Positions 3,213 to 9,994 are shown, counted from the first letter of the stretch. The stretch is 64,000 nucleotides of DNA from Pleomorphomonas sp. PLEO (GCF_041320595.1 NZ_CP166625.1:1032501-1096500), one strand, 5' to 3'. Numbers and translations: made by a program. Notes: generated from the sequence alone by a model not told the origin.

Positions 3213-5063
3213 TCAATAGATCATGGTGCTCATCTTGATCTCGCCCCAGATCTCCTTGACCGTCAGCTCCAGCTCGGCCTTGCGGTCGGTGTAGTAGGTG
3301 TGCAGGAGATGGTGCGCCTTCTCGGAGTTCGGCGAACCCAGGAAGTCGCGATAGAGGGCCTTGACCTGCTCGTTGTTGTGCGACTGACGCACCTTGGCGT
3401 TGCGGTCGATGCCGAACATCGTCTCGCGCCGCTTGAGGGCGTAGGGCAGGTACTGCTTCTTGGAGCGGAGCGTACCGCCGCCATCGACGCAGCCACCGGG
3501 GCAGGCCATGATCTCGATGAAGTCGAAGTCGGCTTCGCCGGCCTTGATCGCTTCCATCAGGGCGCGGGTCTCGCCGAGGCCATGGGCCATGGCGATCTTC
3601 ACTTCGCCGATGTTGCCGCCGAGGTCGACGGTGGCCGAGCGCACGCCCTCGAAGCCGCGCAGCTGAGTCAGCTCGATCTTGTCGAGCTCCTTGCCGTTGA
3701 CGACCTTGTAGACGGTGCGCAGCGCCGCTTCCATGACGCCGCCGGTGGTGCCGAAGATGGCGCCGGCGCCGGTGTATTCGCTCATATAGGGGTTGTCGAA
3801 GGTCGACTTCTCCATGGTGGAGAGATCAAGTCCCTCGCGCTTCAGGAGACGGGCGAACTCGCGCGTCGTCAGCACGACGTCGACATCCGGCGTGTTGTCC
3901 TCACCCAACTGTGGCCGGACGATCTCGTCCTTCTTGGCCGTGCAGGGCATGATGGAGATGACACGGATCTTCTTCGGATCGAGCCCCATCTTGGCCGGCA
4001 GGTAGGTCTTGGCGATGGCGCCGACGACCGCTTGCGGCGAGCGCGTGGACGACAGCAGCGGCAACAGCTCCGGATAGTGAATCTCGGCGAAGTTGACCCA
4101 GGCCGGGCAGCAGGAGGTGATGGTCGGCTTCTTGCGCTCGGCGAGGCGATGCAGAAGCTCGGTGCCTTCCTCCATGATCACCACGTCGGCGCCGAAGTTG
4201 GTGTCGAGCACCACGTCAACGCCGAGCTTACGGGCGGCGGCGATGATCTGTCCCTCGACGTTGGTGCCCGGCGGCATGCCGAACTCTTCGCCGAAGCCGA
4301 CGCGGATGGCCGGTGCGAACTGGAGAACGGTGGTGATCTCCGGGTCGTAGATGTAGTCGAGGACGCGATCGGTCTCGTCCTTCTCGGCAAGTGCGCCGGT
4401 CGGGCAGACCAGGACGCACTGGCCGCACGTGACGCAGGTCGAGTCCTTCTGGTTCTTGCCGTGACGAAGCCCGACGGAGGTGTTGAGGCCGGTGCCGGTG
4501 ATGACCAGCGCGTCGACTTCCTGGTGGTAGCGGCAGACCGCGATGCAGCGCTGGCAGCGAATGCACTTGGTCATGTCGCGGACCATGGCCGGCGACGAAT
4601 GATCGACTTCACGGGAGGTGAGGCGGATCGGATCGAAGAAGCGGTTCTCCTTCAGGCCGACGAACTGCGCCACGTCCTGCAGCTCGCAGGAGCCGTGACG
4701 GGTGCAGGTGGCGCAGTCCTGCAAATGGTCGGCCATCAACAGCTCGACCTGCAGCTTCTGCATCTCGCGCACCTTCTTGGTGCGGGTCTCAATGGCGAGA
4801 CCTTCCTTCACCGGCGTATTGCAGGCCGTCACCATGTGGGTGCCGGTCTGGTCCGGCATCTGGATCTCGACGAGGCAGACGCGGCAGGTGCCGGGCGTGT
4901 GGTCGATATCGGCCAACTCGCACAGCGTCGGAATGTAGAAGTCATGCCGACGGGCGGCCGACAGGATCGTCTCGTTCGGATAGGCCGTGATAGCCTTGCC
5001 ATTGATCTTGAAGCTGATCGTGGCCTCGGCGCCGACGGGGATGAGGGTTTCGACGTTGCACAT
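3213..5063 (-). CDS. [FeFe] hydrogenase catalytic subunit (group A, HydA-like)
   Basis: 616-residue enzyme that catalyses reversible H2 oxidation/proton reduction. Domain order: an N-terminal [2Fe-2S] ferredoxin-like domain (Cys 48, 60, 63, 81); a His-ligated [4Fe-4S] site (His113, Cys 117, 120, 126); two [4Fe-4S] clusters (Cys 167/170/173/177 and 210/213/216/220); then the H-cluster domain. All three signatures are intact: L1 TSCCPAW (318-319, with the proton-relay Cys), L2 MPCTAKKDE (Cys374), L3 MACPGGCVDGGG (Cys 521 and 525). No signal peptide is seen, so it should be cytoplasmic. It starts 4 bases after the NuoF-C/GltD fusion gene, so translation is probably coupled. Genes for the HydE, HydF and HydG maturases are not in the window. 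The context fits the HydDB group A2 (glutamate-synthase-linked) type; that subgroup call is inference. Confidence 0.93.
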   Translation of the reverse strand: MCNVETLIPVGAEATISFKINGKAITAYPNETILSAARRHDFYIPTLCELADIDHTPGTCRVCLVEIQMPDQTGTHMVTACNTPVKEGLAIETRTKKVREMQKLQVELLMADHLQDCATCTRHGSCELQDVAQFVGLKENRFFDPIRLTSREVDHSSPAMVRDMTKCIRCQRCIAVCRYHQEVDALVITGTGLNTSVGLRHGKNQKDSTCVTCGQCVLVCPTGALAEKDETDRVLDYIYDPEITTVLQFAPAIRVGFGEEFGMPPGTNVEGQIIAAARKLGVDVVLDTNFGADVVIMEEGTELLHRLAERKKPTITSCCPAWVNFAEIHYPELLPLLSSTRSPQAVVGAIAKTYLPAKMGLDPKKIRVISIMPCTAKKDEIVRPQLGEDNTPDVDVVLTTREFARLLKREGLDLSTMEKSTFDNPYMSEYTGAGAIFGTTGGVMEAALRTVYKVVNGKELDKIELTQLRGFEGVRSATVDLGGNIGEVKIAMAHGLGETRALMEAIKAGEADFDFIEIMACPGGCVDGGGTLRSKKQYLPYALKRRETMFGIDRNAKVRQSHNNEQVKALYRDFLGSPNSEKAHHLLHTYYTDRKAELELTVKEIWGEIKMSTMIY

Positions 5064-5067
5064 GGTC

Positions 5068-7068
5068 TCACGCCGCTCCTTCGGGGATGGAATGTTCGGT
5101 GATCACGGAATAGATGCGGTAGCAGCGCATGCAGCGCATGGACTCCTTGTAGGCGTCCTCCGAGCTGATGATCTGCTCGACTTCCCCGAACATGGTCTTG
5201 CGCACTTCCGGTGACAGTTCCGGATGGTGGACGCGGTACTCGTTCTTGACCGGCACTTCGATGCAATCGTTGGAGAACAGCTTGTTGTTGTCCAGGATCT
5301 TGCGCATCCGCGAGCGCGGGAAGAAGCGGGTCGAGCCCCGCCGCAGGTAGTCGTCGATATTGCGGGCGGCCTTGAGGCCGTCGGCCATGGCAGCGATCAG
5401 CGTTGATGGTCCGAGGTAGCAGTCGCCGCCGGCGAACACGCCCGGCCGCGACGTGGCGAGCGATTCCTTGTTGGCGACCACCCAGTTCCACTTGCTCATC
5501 TCGACGCCGTCTTCGGGCTTGACCGAGCCGGTGTCGACCTGCTGGCCGATGGCGGCGATCACCACCGAGCAGGGCATCACGTATTCGCTGCCGGGGATCG
5601 GCCGCACGTTGCGGCGACCCTTGGCGTCGACCTCGGTCTGCTCCATCTTGGTCAGCTTGACGCCGACGACCTTGCCGTCTTCCGAAACGATGGCCAGCGG
5701 ATTGGTCAGTACGTGGAACTCGATACCCTCGTCATGGGCAGCCACTACCTCCTCACGATCGGCCGGCATGTCGGCTTCGGTGCGGCGGTAGACCAGATGG
5801 ACTTTCTTGGCCCCCATGCGGATGGCCGAGCGGACACAGTCCATGGCGACGTTGCCGCCACCGACCACCACCACTTCGCCCTCGATATTGTGCGTCTTGA
5901 TGCCGGCGACGTGGTCGTGGACCTTGAGCAGGAAACCAATGCCGGACTCGTAGCCCTGCAGGCTGGTGTCTTCGTTCTCACAGCCCATCTTGGTGCCTTC
6001 CTGGCAGCCGAGGGCGAGGAACACCGACTTGTAGCCACGCTGCATCAGGTCATCGACCGAGAAGTCGGTGCCGAGGCGCTGGTTGAAGAAGAAGCGGCCG
6101 CCGAGCTTGGTGATGGCGTTCATCTCGTTGAGAAGAACGTCTTTCGGCAGGCGGTAGGACGGGATGCCGATGGCGGCCATGCCGCCCATCTCGCCCTGGG
6201 CTTCGTAGATGTCGACGTGATAGCCGCGCATCAGAAGATGATAGGCGCAAGAAACGCCAGCCGGGCCGGCACCGACGACGACGACGCGCTGATCTTCCGG
6301 CAGAATGTTGGCGATCATGTCCTTGGAGAACACCAGCGGATGCGCTCCGGTCTGGTATTCGGCGACGTAGCGCTTCAGGATCTTGATGCCGACGGCTTCG
6401 TCGACCATCTTGCGGCGGCAGGCCGCCTCACAGAAGCGGACGCAGACGCGGCTGCAGGTGGCGGCCATCGGATACTTCTGCAGGATGACGCCCAGCGAAT
6501 GCTCGGGCTTGCCGTCGCGGATGTAGTCGATGTAGCGCGGGACGTTGACCTTGGACGGGCAGGCCTCGATGCACGGCGCCGTCATGTAGCTCATGGAATT
6601 CTGAGGACGGGCCGGCTCTTTCTTGGCAAGTTCCGCTTCGAACTCGTCGCGGAAGGCGGCGATCGCCTTGCCTAGGGCCGTACCGCAGGACTGGCCGAGG
6701 CCGCAGAGCGAGGTGGCGCGCATCTGCTCGGCCATGGTGGCGATCTCGTCGAGGCTGAGGTCGCCTTCAAGGCCGCGGCGCATGGCGCCAAGCGCGTCGC
6801 GTACCAGCACGGTACCCATGCGGCAGGGGGTGCATTTGCCGCAGGACTCGTCGGCAGCCTTGCTGAGATACTGCCAGAAGGTGTCGATGAGATTGACCTT
6901 CTCATCGAAGACGAAGAAGCCGCGATCGGCCACGAAGGCACGGATCGGGTTGTTTTCGTCGAACACCTCGAAATCCTTGAGGTCGGGAGGCGTTGTGCCC
7001 TCCACGACCCTTCCCTGGCGATAATCGTGGACGATGCCGTCCCACACGCCATAAACAACCTGTGCCAT
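5068..7068 (-). CDS. NuoF C-terminal FeS domain fused to a GltD-like FAD/NAD(P) oxidoreductase (hydrogenase partner)
   Basis: 666 residues. Residues about 60-135 match the iron-sulfur end of NuoF/HoxF (ESCGKCTPCRMGT with a later SLCGLG: Cys 76, 79, 82, 122). The NADH/FMN-binding half of NuoF is absent. From about 160 the protein is GltD-like: Cys-rich FeS segment (Cys 166, 170, 205, 209, 213, 217), FAD site VVVVGAGPAGVSCA (262-275), NAD(P) site VVVVGGGNVAMDC, and the C-terminal FAD motif GVFAGGD. A CMRCYR stretch lies near the end. It probably links the hydrogenase to a pyridine nucleotide pool. The start at 7068 is chosen because MAQVVYGVW begins the conserved part, a G-rich RBS precedes it, and upstream sequence is not protein-like. 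It leads the operon. Confidence 0.85.
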   Translation of the reverse strand: MAQVVYGVWDGIVHDYRQGRVVEGTTPPDLKDFEVFDENNPIRAFVADRGFFVFDEKVNLIDTFWQYLSKAADESCGKCTPCRMGTVLVRDALGAMRRGLEGDLSLDEIATMAEQMRATSLCGLGQSCGTALGKAIAAFRDEFEAELAKKEPARPQNSMSYMTAPCIEACPSKVNVPRYIDYIRDGKPEHSLGVILQKYPMAATCSRVCVRFCEAACRRKMVDEAVGIKILKRYVAEYQTGAHPLVFSKDMIANILPEDQRVVVVGAGPAGVSCAYHLLMRGYHVDIYEAQGEMGGMAAIGIPSYRLPKDVLLNEMNAITKLGGRFFFNQRLGTDFSVDDLMQRGYKSVFLALGCQEGTKMGCENEDTSLQGYESGIGFLLKVHDHVAGIKTHNIEGEVVVVGGGNVAMDCVRSAIRMGAKKVHLVYRRTEADMPADREEVVAAHDEGIEFHVLTNPLAIVSEDGKVVGVKLTKMEQTEVDAKGRRNVRPIPGSEYVMPCSVVIAAIGQQVDTGSVKPEDGVEMSKWNWVVANKESLATSRPGVFAGGDCYLGPSTLIAAMADGLKAARNIDDYLRRGSTRFFPRSRMRKILDNNKLFSNDCIEVPVKNEYRVHHPELSPEVRKTMFGEVEQIISSEDAYKESMRCMRCYRIYSVITEHSIPEGAA

Positions 7069-7435
7069 GCTGCCACCCCCATTTGGTTGGGCGTTCCCCC
7101 ACAAGTCTGTCACAGGCGAGCGACCTTCGGGGAAATGTGTCCGTATCGAGCATCCCATACGCATCTGTCATGTGAACAGCAATGAGGAAAGTCAAACGAA
7201 GCATCTTATGTAGTTGCTTTTTCTCTTTTTCGATTTAGATGCTTCCCATTCTCAGCTTTCGTATTACGGGTTATCGCGTATATGGGTGAAACCCATCCGT
7301 ATCTCTTCGGAATAACTTGGTTTCCAATCGGTTTTTGCTCCGGACGCCCATTGGGGTTCGGCAATTTCCCCCAGGTCGCGAATTGGTCTAGTGTTGCCAA
7401 TGACGCGGCCTCGCCGCTTAAATCCAGGTTCCATC
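7069..7435. other. Divergent promoter region between the hydrogenase operon and the ABC transporter
   Basis: About 370 bases without a convincing gene. Two dyads stand out: GAAGCATCT (7198-7206) with AGATGCTTC (7237-7245), 30 bases apart, and ATGGGT-GAA-ACCCAT at 7282-7296. I found no FNR-type TTGAT-N4-ATCAA box, no sigma-54 element and no TGT-N10-ACA motif, so the hydrogenase operon does not show the nif-type control seen at nifB. Confidence 0.5.
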
Positions 7436-8446
7436 ATGACAGTTCCCTCCATGCCAGCTGGCATGAGCCGCCGGCGCTTCCTCGAGTGCCTGACCACCGC
7501 CGCTGCCCTCGTTGCGCTGCCGGCTCAGGCTGCCGCGCCCCTCGACCGCTTGACGGTATGGGGTATGCCGGCTTCGCCATCGGTGGTGCTGGCTCGGGCT
7601 GTGGCTTCGGGTGCGCTCTCCAAGCTGGTGGGGGAGGCGCGCTTCGATGTCTGGCGCACGGCCGATCAGATGCGGGCCGGGGTCGTCTCGGGCGACATTT
7701 CACTGTTCGCCGCGCCGAGCTATGCCGCCGCCAACCTTTTTAACCGTGGTGCCGGCGTCCGTCTCGTCAACGTTCTGACCTGGGGTCTGCTCTACATCTT
7801 CGCCGGGCAGGGCGTGCGCCTCGAACGGATCGAAGACCTTCGGGGGAAGACGTTGCTGGTCGGTGCCAAGAACGATGCCCCCGATCTTCTCACCCGCTTC
7901 GTGCTCAAGTCGGCAGGGCTCGATCCGGACCGGGATGTCAGCCTTTCCTATGTCGGCACGTCGGCCGAGGCGGTGCCGCTGCTTCTGGCCGGCAAGGCTG
8001 ATGCCGCCGTGTTGCCGGAGCCGGCTGCGAGCGCCGCCGAGATCAGGGCAAAGCAGGCAGGCGTTGCGGTCACGCGCGCCCTCGACGTTACCGAGCTCTA
8101 CGCAGTCCGCAGCGGCCGTCCCGCCGGCATTCCGCAGGCCGGCCTCGCGGTGACGGACGCCTTTCTTGAGGCCCATCCCGACGTCGTCGCGGCGCTGCAT
8201 GCCGCTTCGGTGGAGGCGGCCGGCTGGGTCGGCGACAATCCGAAAGCCGCGGCGGGGCTCATCGCCGATCAGTTGAAGCTGCCGGCGCCGATCATCGAGG
8301 CCTCACTGCCGCGTTTCCGCCTGAAAGTGATGTCGGCGTGGGACGCCAAGGCCGATCTCGAAGCCTACTTCCAGGCACTGATGACCCTTTCGCCGGACAT
8401 CGTCGCCGGACGCCTGCCGGAACCAGCCTTCTATTGGGGAAGCTGA
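7436..8446 (+). CDS. ABC transporter substrate-binding protein, NitT/TauT-like, with Tat signal
   Basis: 336-residue periplasmic solute-binding protein. The N terminus has a twin-arginine signal (SRRRFLE followed by a hydrophobic stretch ending in AQAAA), so it is probably exported folded by the Tat pathway. The body resembles the NMT1/SsuA/TauA fold: the DLRGKTLLVG-like segment after an IED loop, then LTRFVLKSAGLDPDRDV and a second lobe. Start 7436 puts the RR pair close to the N terminus; 7391 is an alternative. It is the first gene of a three-gene unit. Substrates of this family include sulfonates, nitrate and pyrimidine precursors; this one is not resolved. Confidence 0.8.
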   Translation: MTVPSMPAGMSRRRFLECLTTAAALVALPAQAAAPLDRLTVWGMPASPSVVLARAVASGALSKLVGEARFDVWRTADQMRAGVVSGDISLFAAPSYAAANLFNRGAGVRLVNVLTWGLLYIFAGQGVRLERIEDLRGKTLLVGAKNDAPDLLTRFVLKSAGLDPDRDVSLSYVGTSAEAVPLLLAGKADAAVLPEPAASAAEIRAKQAGVAVTRALDVTELYAVRSGRPAGIPQAGLAVTDAFLEAHPDVVAALHAASVEAAGWVGDNPKAAAGLIADQLKLPAPIIEASLPRFRLKVMSAWDAKADLEAYFQALMTLSPDIVAGRLPEPAFYWGS

Positions 8447-8450
8447 GACC

Positions 8451-9248
8451 ATGCCGAGGATCCCCTGGCACCGGCTGGCCGGTGGCGGTGGCGAGCGCCG
8501 CTGGGCGATGCTCGGGCTTGCCGGTGTTGTCGCGCTCTGGGAAATCGGACATCGCGCTTATGGTGACTTCGTGCTGCCCTCGCCGTTGGCGACGGTTCTC
8601 GCGTTGGGGCGGCTGGCGTCTGGTGGCGATCTCTGGCCGGCGGTGGTGACGACGGCGCGCGATGCGTTCAGCGGCTTTCTCGCGGCGACATTGATCGGTT
8701 CGCTCTTGGGTGGTCTTGCTGGCCGCTCGTTGTCGGTGCGGGCCATGTTGCAGCCGATTGCCACTATCCTGATCGGTGTGCCGGCCATCGCCTGGGTGGT
8801 GCTGTCGCTCTTGTGGTTCGGTGGCTCGGGGCTTGCCGCCACGTTTTCAGTCGCGGTCGCGGTCGGTCCCCTGGTGTTTGCCGCCGCGACGCAGGGCACC
8901 CGCACCGTCGATGGCAGCCTCTGCACCATGGCGCGCGCTTTCCGAGTGCCGCTTGGCGCTCGGATCGTCGACGTTTATCTGCCGCATGTCCTGTCCCATC
9001 TGCTGCCGGCGCTCGGCACGGCGCTCGCCATGAGCTGGAAGGTGGCCGTCATGGCCGAGTTGCTGTCCGGGGCCGGCGGTATCGGCGACGGCCTCGCGGC
9101 GGCGCGGGCCGAGGTCGACACGGCCAAGACCATGGCCTGGGTGGTCGTGGTGGTGGCGCTGCTGTTGATCGTTGAACGCCTCCTCATCGAACCGGTGCGC
9201 CGGTATTTCGAGACATGGCGGCGCGGTCTGCCGGGAGAGGCGGCATGA
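8451..9248 (+). CDS. ABC transporter permease, NitT/TauT (SsuC-like)
   Basis: 265-residue inner-membrane permease with about six hydrophobic segments. The cytoplasmic EAA-type loop that docks to the ATPase is seen around MARAFRVPLGARIVDVYLP, and the region ALAMSWKVAVMAELL matches SsuC/TauC permeases. It begins 4 bases after the binding-protein stop and its stop overlaps the ATPase start (ATGA at 9245-9248), so the three genes form one operon. Confidence 0.87.
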   Translation: MPRIPWHRLAGGGGERRWAMLGLAGVVALWEIGHRAYGDFVLPSPLATVLALGRLASGGDLWPAVVTTARDAFSGFLAATLIGSLLGGLAGRSLSVRAMLQPIATILIGVPAIAWVVLSLLWFGGSGLAATFSVAVAVGPLVFAAATQGTRTVDGSLCTMARAFRVPLGARIVDVYLPHVLSHLLPALGTALAMSWKVAVMAELLSGAGGIGDGLAAARAEVDTAKTMAWVVVVVALLLIVERLLIEPVRRYFETWRRGLPGEAA

Positions 9249-9994
9249 GCGAGGCGGGGGCGCTCGTTGCCAGCGGCGTATCGCATGGCTTTGCCGGTAC
9301 AAAAGTGCTCGACAGGATCGACCTGCAAGTCCCAAGGGGCGGCGTGCTCGCCATTCTTGGGCCGTCCGGTGGCGGCAAGACGACGCTGCTCCATATCCTG
9401 GGCGGCCTCTTAAACCCCGACAGTGGCCGCCTCGACCTGCCGTTTGGCCGGCCGGCCTTCGTTTTTCAGGATCCGCTTCTCCTGCCTTGGCGAACGGCGC
9501 GCGGCAACGTCGCCTTCGGTCTTGCCGGCCTGCGGCTTACCCGCGCCGAGCGTCTCAGCCAGGCGCGGACGATGCTGGTCAAGGTCGGCCTGGGACAGGG
9601 CGCCGCTGATCTTTACCCGCATCAGCTTTCCGGTGGCATGAAGAAACGGGTAGCGCTGGCGCGAGCCCTTGCCGTCAAGCCTGACGTCTTGCTGCTCGAT
9701 GAGGCCTTTTCAGCACTCGATGTCGGTCTGTCGCGCGAGATGCAGCAGCTTGTTCGCCTCGACGCACAGGAGCGTGGGGTGACGGTGGTGCTGGTGACCC
9801 ACGATCTCTCAGAGGCCGTGCGCATTGCCGATCGGGTGGTGGTGCTGGCGGGACGGCCGGGGCGCATTGTCGCCCGCCTTTCCATCGACCGGCCAGCCCG
9901 CCTCAGGGACGATGCCTATGTGGAAGCGGAAATTCGCCGCATCGCAGCGCTTGAGGCGGTCCTCGACGCTTTTCGCACCACGTTGTCGGGCTGA
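9245..9994 (+). CDS. ABC transporter ATP-binding protein, NitT/TauT (SsuB-like)
   Basis: 249-residue nucleotide-binding domain. Walker A GPSGGGKTT, Q-loop in FVFQDPLLLPW, signature LSGGMKKRVALARAL, Walker B VLLLDEAFSALD and the switch His in LVTHDLSEAV are all intact. The LPWRT sequence after the Q-loop is usual for SsuB/TauB-type proteins. ATG 9245 overlaps the permease stop, which fixes the start. Its stop codon directly abuts the stop codon of the convergent RND pump gene, with no intergenic base. Confidence 0.9.
   Translation: MSEAGALVASGVSHGFAGTKVLDRIDLQVPRGGVLAILGPSGGGKTTLLHILGGLLNPDSGRLDLPFGRPAFVFQDPLLLPWRTARGNVAFGLAGLRLTRAERLSQARTMLVKVGLGQGAADLYPHQLSGGMKKRVALARALAVKPDVLLLDEAFSALDVGLSREMQQLVRLDAQERGVTVVLVTHDLSEAVRIADRVVVLAGRPGRIVARLSIDRPARLRDDAYVEAEIRRIAALEAVLDAFRTTLSG

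Follow-up and report, generated by a model that had tools for sequence, protein, structure and literature searches.

The window analysed here, a 64,000-nucleotide stretch of the genome of Pleomorphomonas sp. PLEO (GCF_041320595.1, NZ_CP166625.1:1032501-1096500), carries a two-gene operon that probably encodes a reversible H2:NADP+ oxidoreductase without electron bifurcation; the enzyme would be a short version of the putative group A2 of [FeFe] hydrogenases in HydDB. The pair would form a two-subunit soluble [FeFe] hydrogenase in which H2 is reversibly coupled to NADP(H). At the sequence level, this reading draws on an intact active site and intact ligands along the electron-transfer chain, the presence of maturases in the genome, a gene pair that is fixed across phyla, and the absence of an FMN/NADH site. 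The genus was judged to be Pleomorphomonas from close relatives. A plasmid origin was rejected, as a tblastn search against plasmids returned only matches below 60% identity.

The operon and its catalytic subunit

Both genes lie on the minus strand, the fusion gene first and hydA 3' of it, with 4 bases between the fusion stop (5068) and the hydA ATG (5063):

3213..5063, minus strand: hydA, group A (M3-type) [FeFe] hydrogenase catalytic subunit, 616 aa (profile, domain and alignment evidence); domain order N-terminal [2Fe-2S], His/Cys [4Fe-4S], two [4Fe-4S], H-cluster domain, SSU domain
5068..7068, minus strand: fusion, predicted electron-transfer partner, 666 aa (profile, domain, structure-relative and alignment evidence)

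The fusion reading frame is open up to 7164, and the ATG at 7068 is the conserved start, aligned with the start codon in nearly all homologues; the span of 3213-7068 given in a preliminary description of this DNA is therefore exact.

The catalytic subunit contains Fe_hyd_lg_C (1.2e-90), Fe_hyd_SSU, Fer2_4, NADH-G_4Fe-4S_3 and ferredoxin-type 4Fe-4S domains, and its score of 524.9 bits against TIGR02512 (cut-off 405.95) assigns it to group A. The H-cluster motifs read TSCCPAW (L1), MPCTAKKDE (L2) and EIMACPGGCVDGGG (L3). In an alignment of 42 family members, the H-cluster cysteines (C319, C374, C521 and C525), the proton-path residues (C318, E299, E302, R306 and S338) and all ligands of the accessory clusters were present and almost invariant, in agreement with the preliminary description, which had regarded all three motifs and the accessory FeS ligands as intact. 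The roles of these residues in the H-cluster, proton path and accessory clusters are those of the positions in CpI that we take to be equivalent. Values of dN/dS were low in both halves of HydA, with the H-domain mostly the more conserved half.

A GltD-like fusion as the probable electron-transfer partner

The domain search identified PF10589, PF14691 and PF07992 in the partner and no Complex1_51K FMN domain, so the earlier view that the hydrogenase gene is paired with a GltD-like fusion holds. From the N terminus, the protein consists of a YGVWDG segment, the NuoF C-terminal [4Fe-4S] domain, Fer4_20, a GltD-like FAD/NADPH domain and a C-terminal RCxRC segment, with cysteines distributed as follows:

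NuoF-derived adaptor: C76, C79, C82, C122
Fer4_20: C166, C170, C205, C209, C213, C217
C-terminal RCxRC: C646, C649

The fusion matches the GltD-type profiles NF009454, TIGR01316, TIGR01318 and PF07992/PF14691, while its adaptor part also matches TIGR01959 (nuoF) at 8.6e-17 and aligns with the C-terminal [4Fe-4S] region of HydB/StnB. Among solved structures, the GltD part is closest to the NADPH-using StnC/NfnABC and NfnB/L chains, and its GIPSYRL, GGGNVAMD and YRRT motifs are kept across the family. The RCxRC pair is C-terminal in the fusion and N-terminal in NfnB. Fer4_20 corresponds to two clusters in relatives of the fusion, and the conserved cysteines supply the predicted ligands of one adaptor cluster and enough for two more. 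The AlphaFold model of the fusion reached a mean pLDDT of 69.4 and was poor at the Fer4_20 region. The "GltD" gene would encode a diaphorase built into a hydrogenase and no glutamate synthase subunit.

Proposed reaction and physiological context

In the proposed enzyme, electrons from the H-cluster would follow the FeS clusters of HydA into the NuoF-derived adaptor with its [4Fe-4S] cluster, and from there pass through the two Fer4_20 clusters and the FAD of the GltD-like module to NADP+. We infer complex formation, NADP specificity and reversibility; motif similarity suggests that NADP would be preferred over NAD. In StnC, NADPH is handled by a GltD-like FAD that does not bifurcate and whose electrons travel via [4Fe-4S] clusters to the HydB-type subunit (PMC10482914). 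For the window operon, a straight H2-NADP(H) chain is proposed. The enzyme would be non-bifurcating because the bifurcating FMN domain of HydABC/StnABC is missing and no NfnA-like flavoprotein is adjacent; a further partner flavoprotein or ferredoxin encoded elsewhere is possible.

The preliminary description proposed looking for hydE/F/G elsewhere in the genome and named their absence as a refutation. A profile search of the genome recovered all three above their cut-offs (HydG 510.9, HydF 536.7 and HydE 305.9 bits), grouped at 4.987-4.993 Mb, and the interpretation withstands this check. A 463-aa aspartase/fumarase-like ORF lies between hydF and hydG (L020:10691-12082), and relatives of this ORF are neighbours of one or the other gene at several further carrier loci.

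The reaction could form NADPH from H2 when H2 is plentiful (from nitrogenase or CO oxidation), or could release H2 as an NADPH valve in anoxia. CO oxidation is another reductant source or sink to consider, since a Pleomorphomonas-like isolate produces H2 from CO (PMC5603099).

An enzyme dedicated to recycling nitrogenase H2 would be compatible with this mechanism, and we regard such a dedication as rather doubtful. In its favour, nifH was present in 9 of 9 genus genomes tested and, outside the genus, scored above cut-off in 15 of the 25 carriers (17 with fragments), an uncontrolled raw count, and the genus has been described as nitrogen-fixing (PMC4967309). The genome itself encodes three NifH above cut-off outside the window (genome positions 4724974, 5309698 and 4147101), in line with the nitrogen-fixing alphaproteobacterium named in the preliminary description; the third NifH, with a lower score of 400 bits, may be part of an alternative nitrogenase. 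On the other hand, the same genome encodes a full-length [NiFe] HupL large subunit at 3.648 Mb, some carriers have no nifH, and no NifA/sigma-54 site was found within 350 bases upstream of the operon, so that control by NifA/sigma-54 was rejected. The role in nitrogen fixation suggested in the preliminary description is possible, with its support limited to co-occurrence. The upstream region also contains a weak candidate regulatory site:

7182..7195, minus strand: FNR/FixK-like half-palindrome TTGACTTTCCTCAT, 127 to 114 bases before the fusion start codon

This candidate has one mismatch to TTGA-N6-TCAA; it is retained in Pleomorphomonas and shifted in Oryzibacter.

Comparison with bifurcating enzymes and long-form relatives

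An electron-splitting GltD-type FAD like that of NfnB, which would make the enzyme a bifurcating one coupling H2, NADPH and ferredoxin, is in our view unlikely. The FAD-site arginine region (GIPSYRL) and the Fer4_20 ligands do resemble NfnB, and the best solved relatives of HydA are the HydA subunits of bifurcating HydABC. However, the operon has neither an NfnA-like second flavoprotein nor a HydB FMN domain, and StnC lost bifurcation even though the equivalent arginine was kept (PMC10482914).

Electron-bifurcating HydABC (group A3; 7q4v, 8a6t, 7p5h) has the same HydA domain layout, and the adaptor is the counterpart of the C-terminal [4Fe-4S] domain of its HydB, whereas the window operon has no HydC and no FMN/NADH site. 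Assignment to group A3 was rejected given only two genes, no Complex1_51K and no thioredoxin-like domain. A second HydA, at 5.051 Mb, does lie in a HydABC-type NuoE-NuoF-HydA operon (L003:8128-12152). The NADH-dependent group A6 (NCBIfam NF040763) was likewise rejected, with 740 bits against a threshold of 765. StnABC and NfnAB (8oh5, 9bov, 4ylf) share with the fusion a GltD-like FAD/NADPH module and its two [4Fe-4S] clusters, but they join NADPH to NAD+/ferredoxin, whereas the module in the window is joined to a hydrogenase; an Stn/Nfn transhydrogenase was rejected because the operon contains no NfnA and no StnAB-type FMN subunits.

The family was collected from 84,980 species genomes with two short peptide patterns and may be wider than the set recovered. 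The window HydA belongs to a clade of 42, separated with support of 100/100 from long-fusion and HydABC-type sequences and comprising alpha-, beta- and gammaproteobacteria and a few Acidobacteria/Eisenbacteria MAGs. The short fusion adjoins hydA in 40 of the 41 other clade loci; in the only exception (L058), the contig starts 172 bases before hydA. Among 60 sampled genomes of relatives, the operon was found in all 14 from the genus and in none of the other genera. A class sample of 387 genomes contained this hydrogenase type only in the window's own genome and any group A HydA (E<=1e-60) in 15 genomes, which bears out the earlier remark that [FeFe] hydrogenases are rare in alphaproteobacteria. 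Candidatus Eisenbacteria MAGs (L065 / L066) have the same operon inside this mainly proteobacterial clade, a placement that suggests lateral transfer or a MAG binning error.

HydB-GltD long fusions with an FMN domain adjoin HydA in Moorella sulfitireducens and Omnitrophota (L096, L095, L100, L123 and L132; fusions at L096:2958-5990, L095:2842-5985 and L123:2801-5983). They have the same order of NuoF [4Fe-4S], Fer4_20 and GltD upstream of hydA as the window, but retain the Complex1_51K FMN domain that the short fusion lacks. Because the long fusions keep this domain, the short form probably lost it, and the long fusions are a possible parent of the short one. The comparison suggests that fusion came first and FMN loss later, an order that the tree, with its long-form sequences on long branches, does not itself show.

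A sister group without detected maturases and a linked transporter

HydG was not found in 6 of 25 carrier genomes outside the genus. Four of the six are from cultured strains, namely Tropicimonas marinistellae, T. isoalkanivorans, Rhodobium orientis and Aliiruegeria lutimaris (loci L063, L068, L075 and L088 of genomes G060, G064, G070 and G081), and searches of these four for HydE (E<=1e-3) and HydF (E<=1e-22) were likewise negative, in assemblies that may be incomplete. In the HydA tree, the four strains form one clade (support 100/100) with A. sabulilitoris, which is represented by its hydrogenase locus, the maturase search having covered the four other genomes. This clade falls inside a group with Pleomorphomonas and Oryzibacter (99/99), within which the branching order is not resolved.

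The maturase-less HydA proteins keep all ligands in the alignment, and the dN/dS of their H-domain, about 0.04-0.16, is within the range of maturase carriers and indicates purifying selection. A more speculative and rather unlikely reading is that this sister clade (Tropicimonas, Rhodobium, Aliiruegeria) truly keeps its intact hydrogenase without HydEFG; the protein would then either mature by a novel route or function without a standard H-cluster.

This clade also bears on the idea that the Pleomorphomonas enzyme itself lacks catalytic activity or has a redox function only, its conserved GltD and FeS parts being the working portion. The sister clade does retain the operon without HydE, HydF and HydG, and a Rhodospirillum rubrum HydA without maturases was reported earlier and thought to be silent or differently used (PMC4967309). 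Nevertheless, silence is quite improbable in Pleomorphomonas, where all maturases are present, the H-domain mostly shows the stronger conservation of the two halves and the active-site ligands are invariant or nearly so.

Divergently from the operon, the window encodes an ABC transporter:

7391..8446, plus strand: NMT1/SsuA-like substrate-binding protein with a twin-arginine-like leader, divergent neighbour of the operon
8451..9248, plus strand: permease of the same ABC transporter
9215..9994, plus strand: ATPase of the same ABC transporter

In those Pleomorphomonas loci whose upstream sequence is long enough, the transporter (7391-9994) adjoins the operon. It is also linked, in other arrangements, in 5 of 5 loci of the maturase-less group; it was not found within 6 kb of the operon in Oryzibacter or in the remaining clade members. 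The leader of the binding protein has an invariant Arg pair, and its predicted fold (AlphaFold/Foldseek) is SsuA/PqqT/Thi5-like. Linked as it is in that clade and in Pleomorphomonas, the transporter may be part of the maturase-less story.

Relation to group A2 and implications

HydDB describes [FeFe] group A2 as "glutamate synthase-linked (putative)", lists its role as undetermined and states a possible NAD link; the group is marked by a GltD-type partner, and the rule for membership is a downstream partner with GltD but not NuoF (PMC5037454). The group A2 context proposed in the preliminary description stands insofar as the window also combines a group A catalytic subunit with a GltD-type protein. 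It does not cleanly fit the rule, because the fusion lies immediately 5' of hydA and matches TIGR01959 nuoF: a NuoF [4Fe-4S] adaptor precedes the GltD part in the same chain, with the C-terminal NuoF segment present and the FMN domain absent. The partner would probably serve NADP(H) rather than glutamate synthase. Electron donation to glutamate synthase, to which the HydDB label (PMC5037454) and the homology of the partner to GltD might point, is highly improbable, as no GltB adjoins the operon, two separate standalone GltD-like ORFs occur elsewhere in the genome, and the partner joins its GltD part to a NuoF adaptor suited to HydA.

Two long M3 [FeFe] hydrogenases together with HydE, HydF and HydG have been listed for P. 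oryzae (Degli Esposti et al. 2016, PMC4967309), a member of the same genus with two M3 enzymes and HydEFG, as here. The terms "GltD", "glutamate synthase" and "NADPH" are absent from the text of that paper, and neither the fusion to GltD nor the short architecture nor an NADP link is described there. Relative to the open-licence literature, the new elements are the short architecture, its clade, its probable long-form parent and the NADP reading, as well as the transporter linkage and the sister group without detected maturases.

For group A2, a group A type whose role is undetermined in HydDB, the short architecture points to a simple H2-to-NADPH reaction, and the carriers of such a hydrogenase include culturable bacteria. 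Comparison of the long with the short form points to a way in which a bifurcating module could have been reduced to a plain NADP-linked one. The maturase-less sister group offers a clean comparison for whether an H-cluster is built, or the protein used, without HydEFG.
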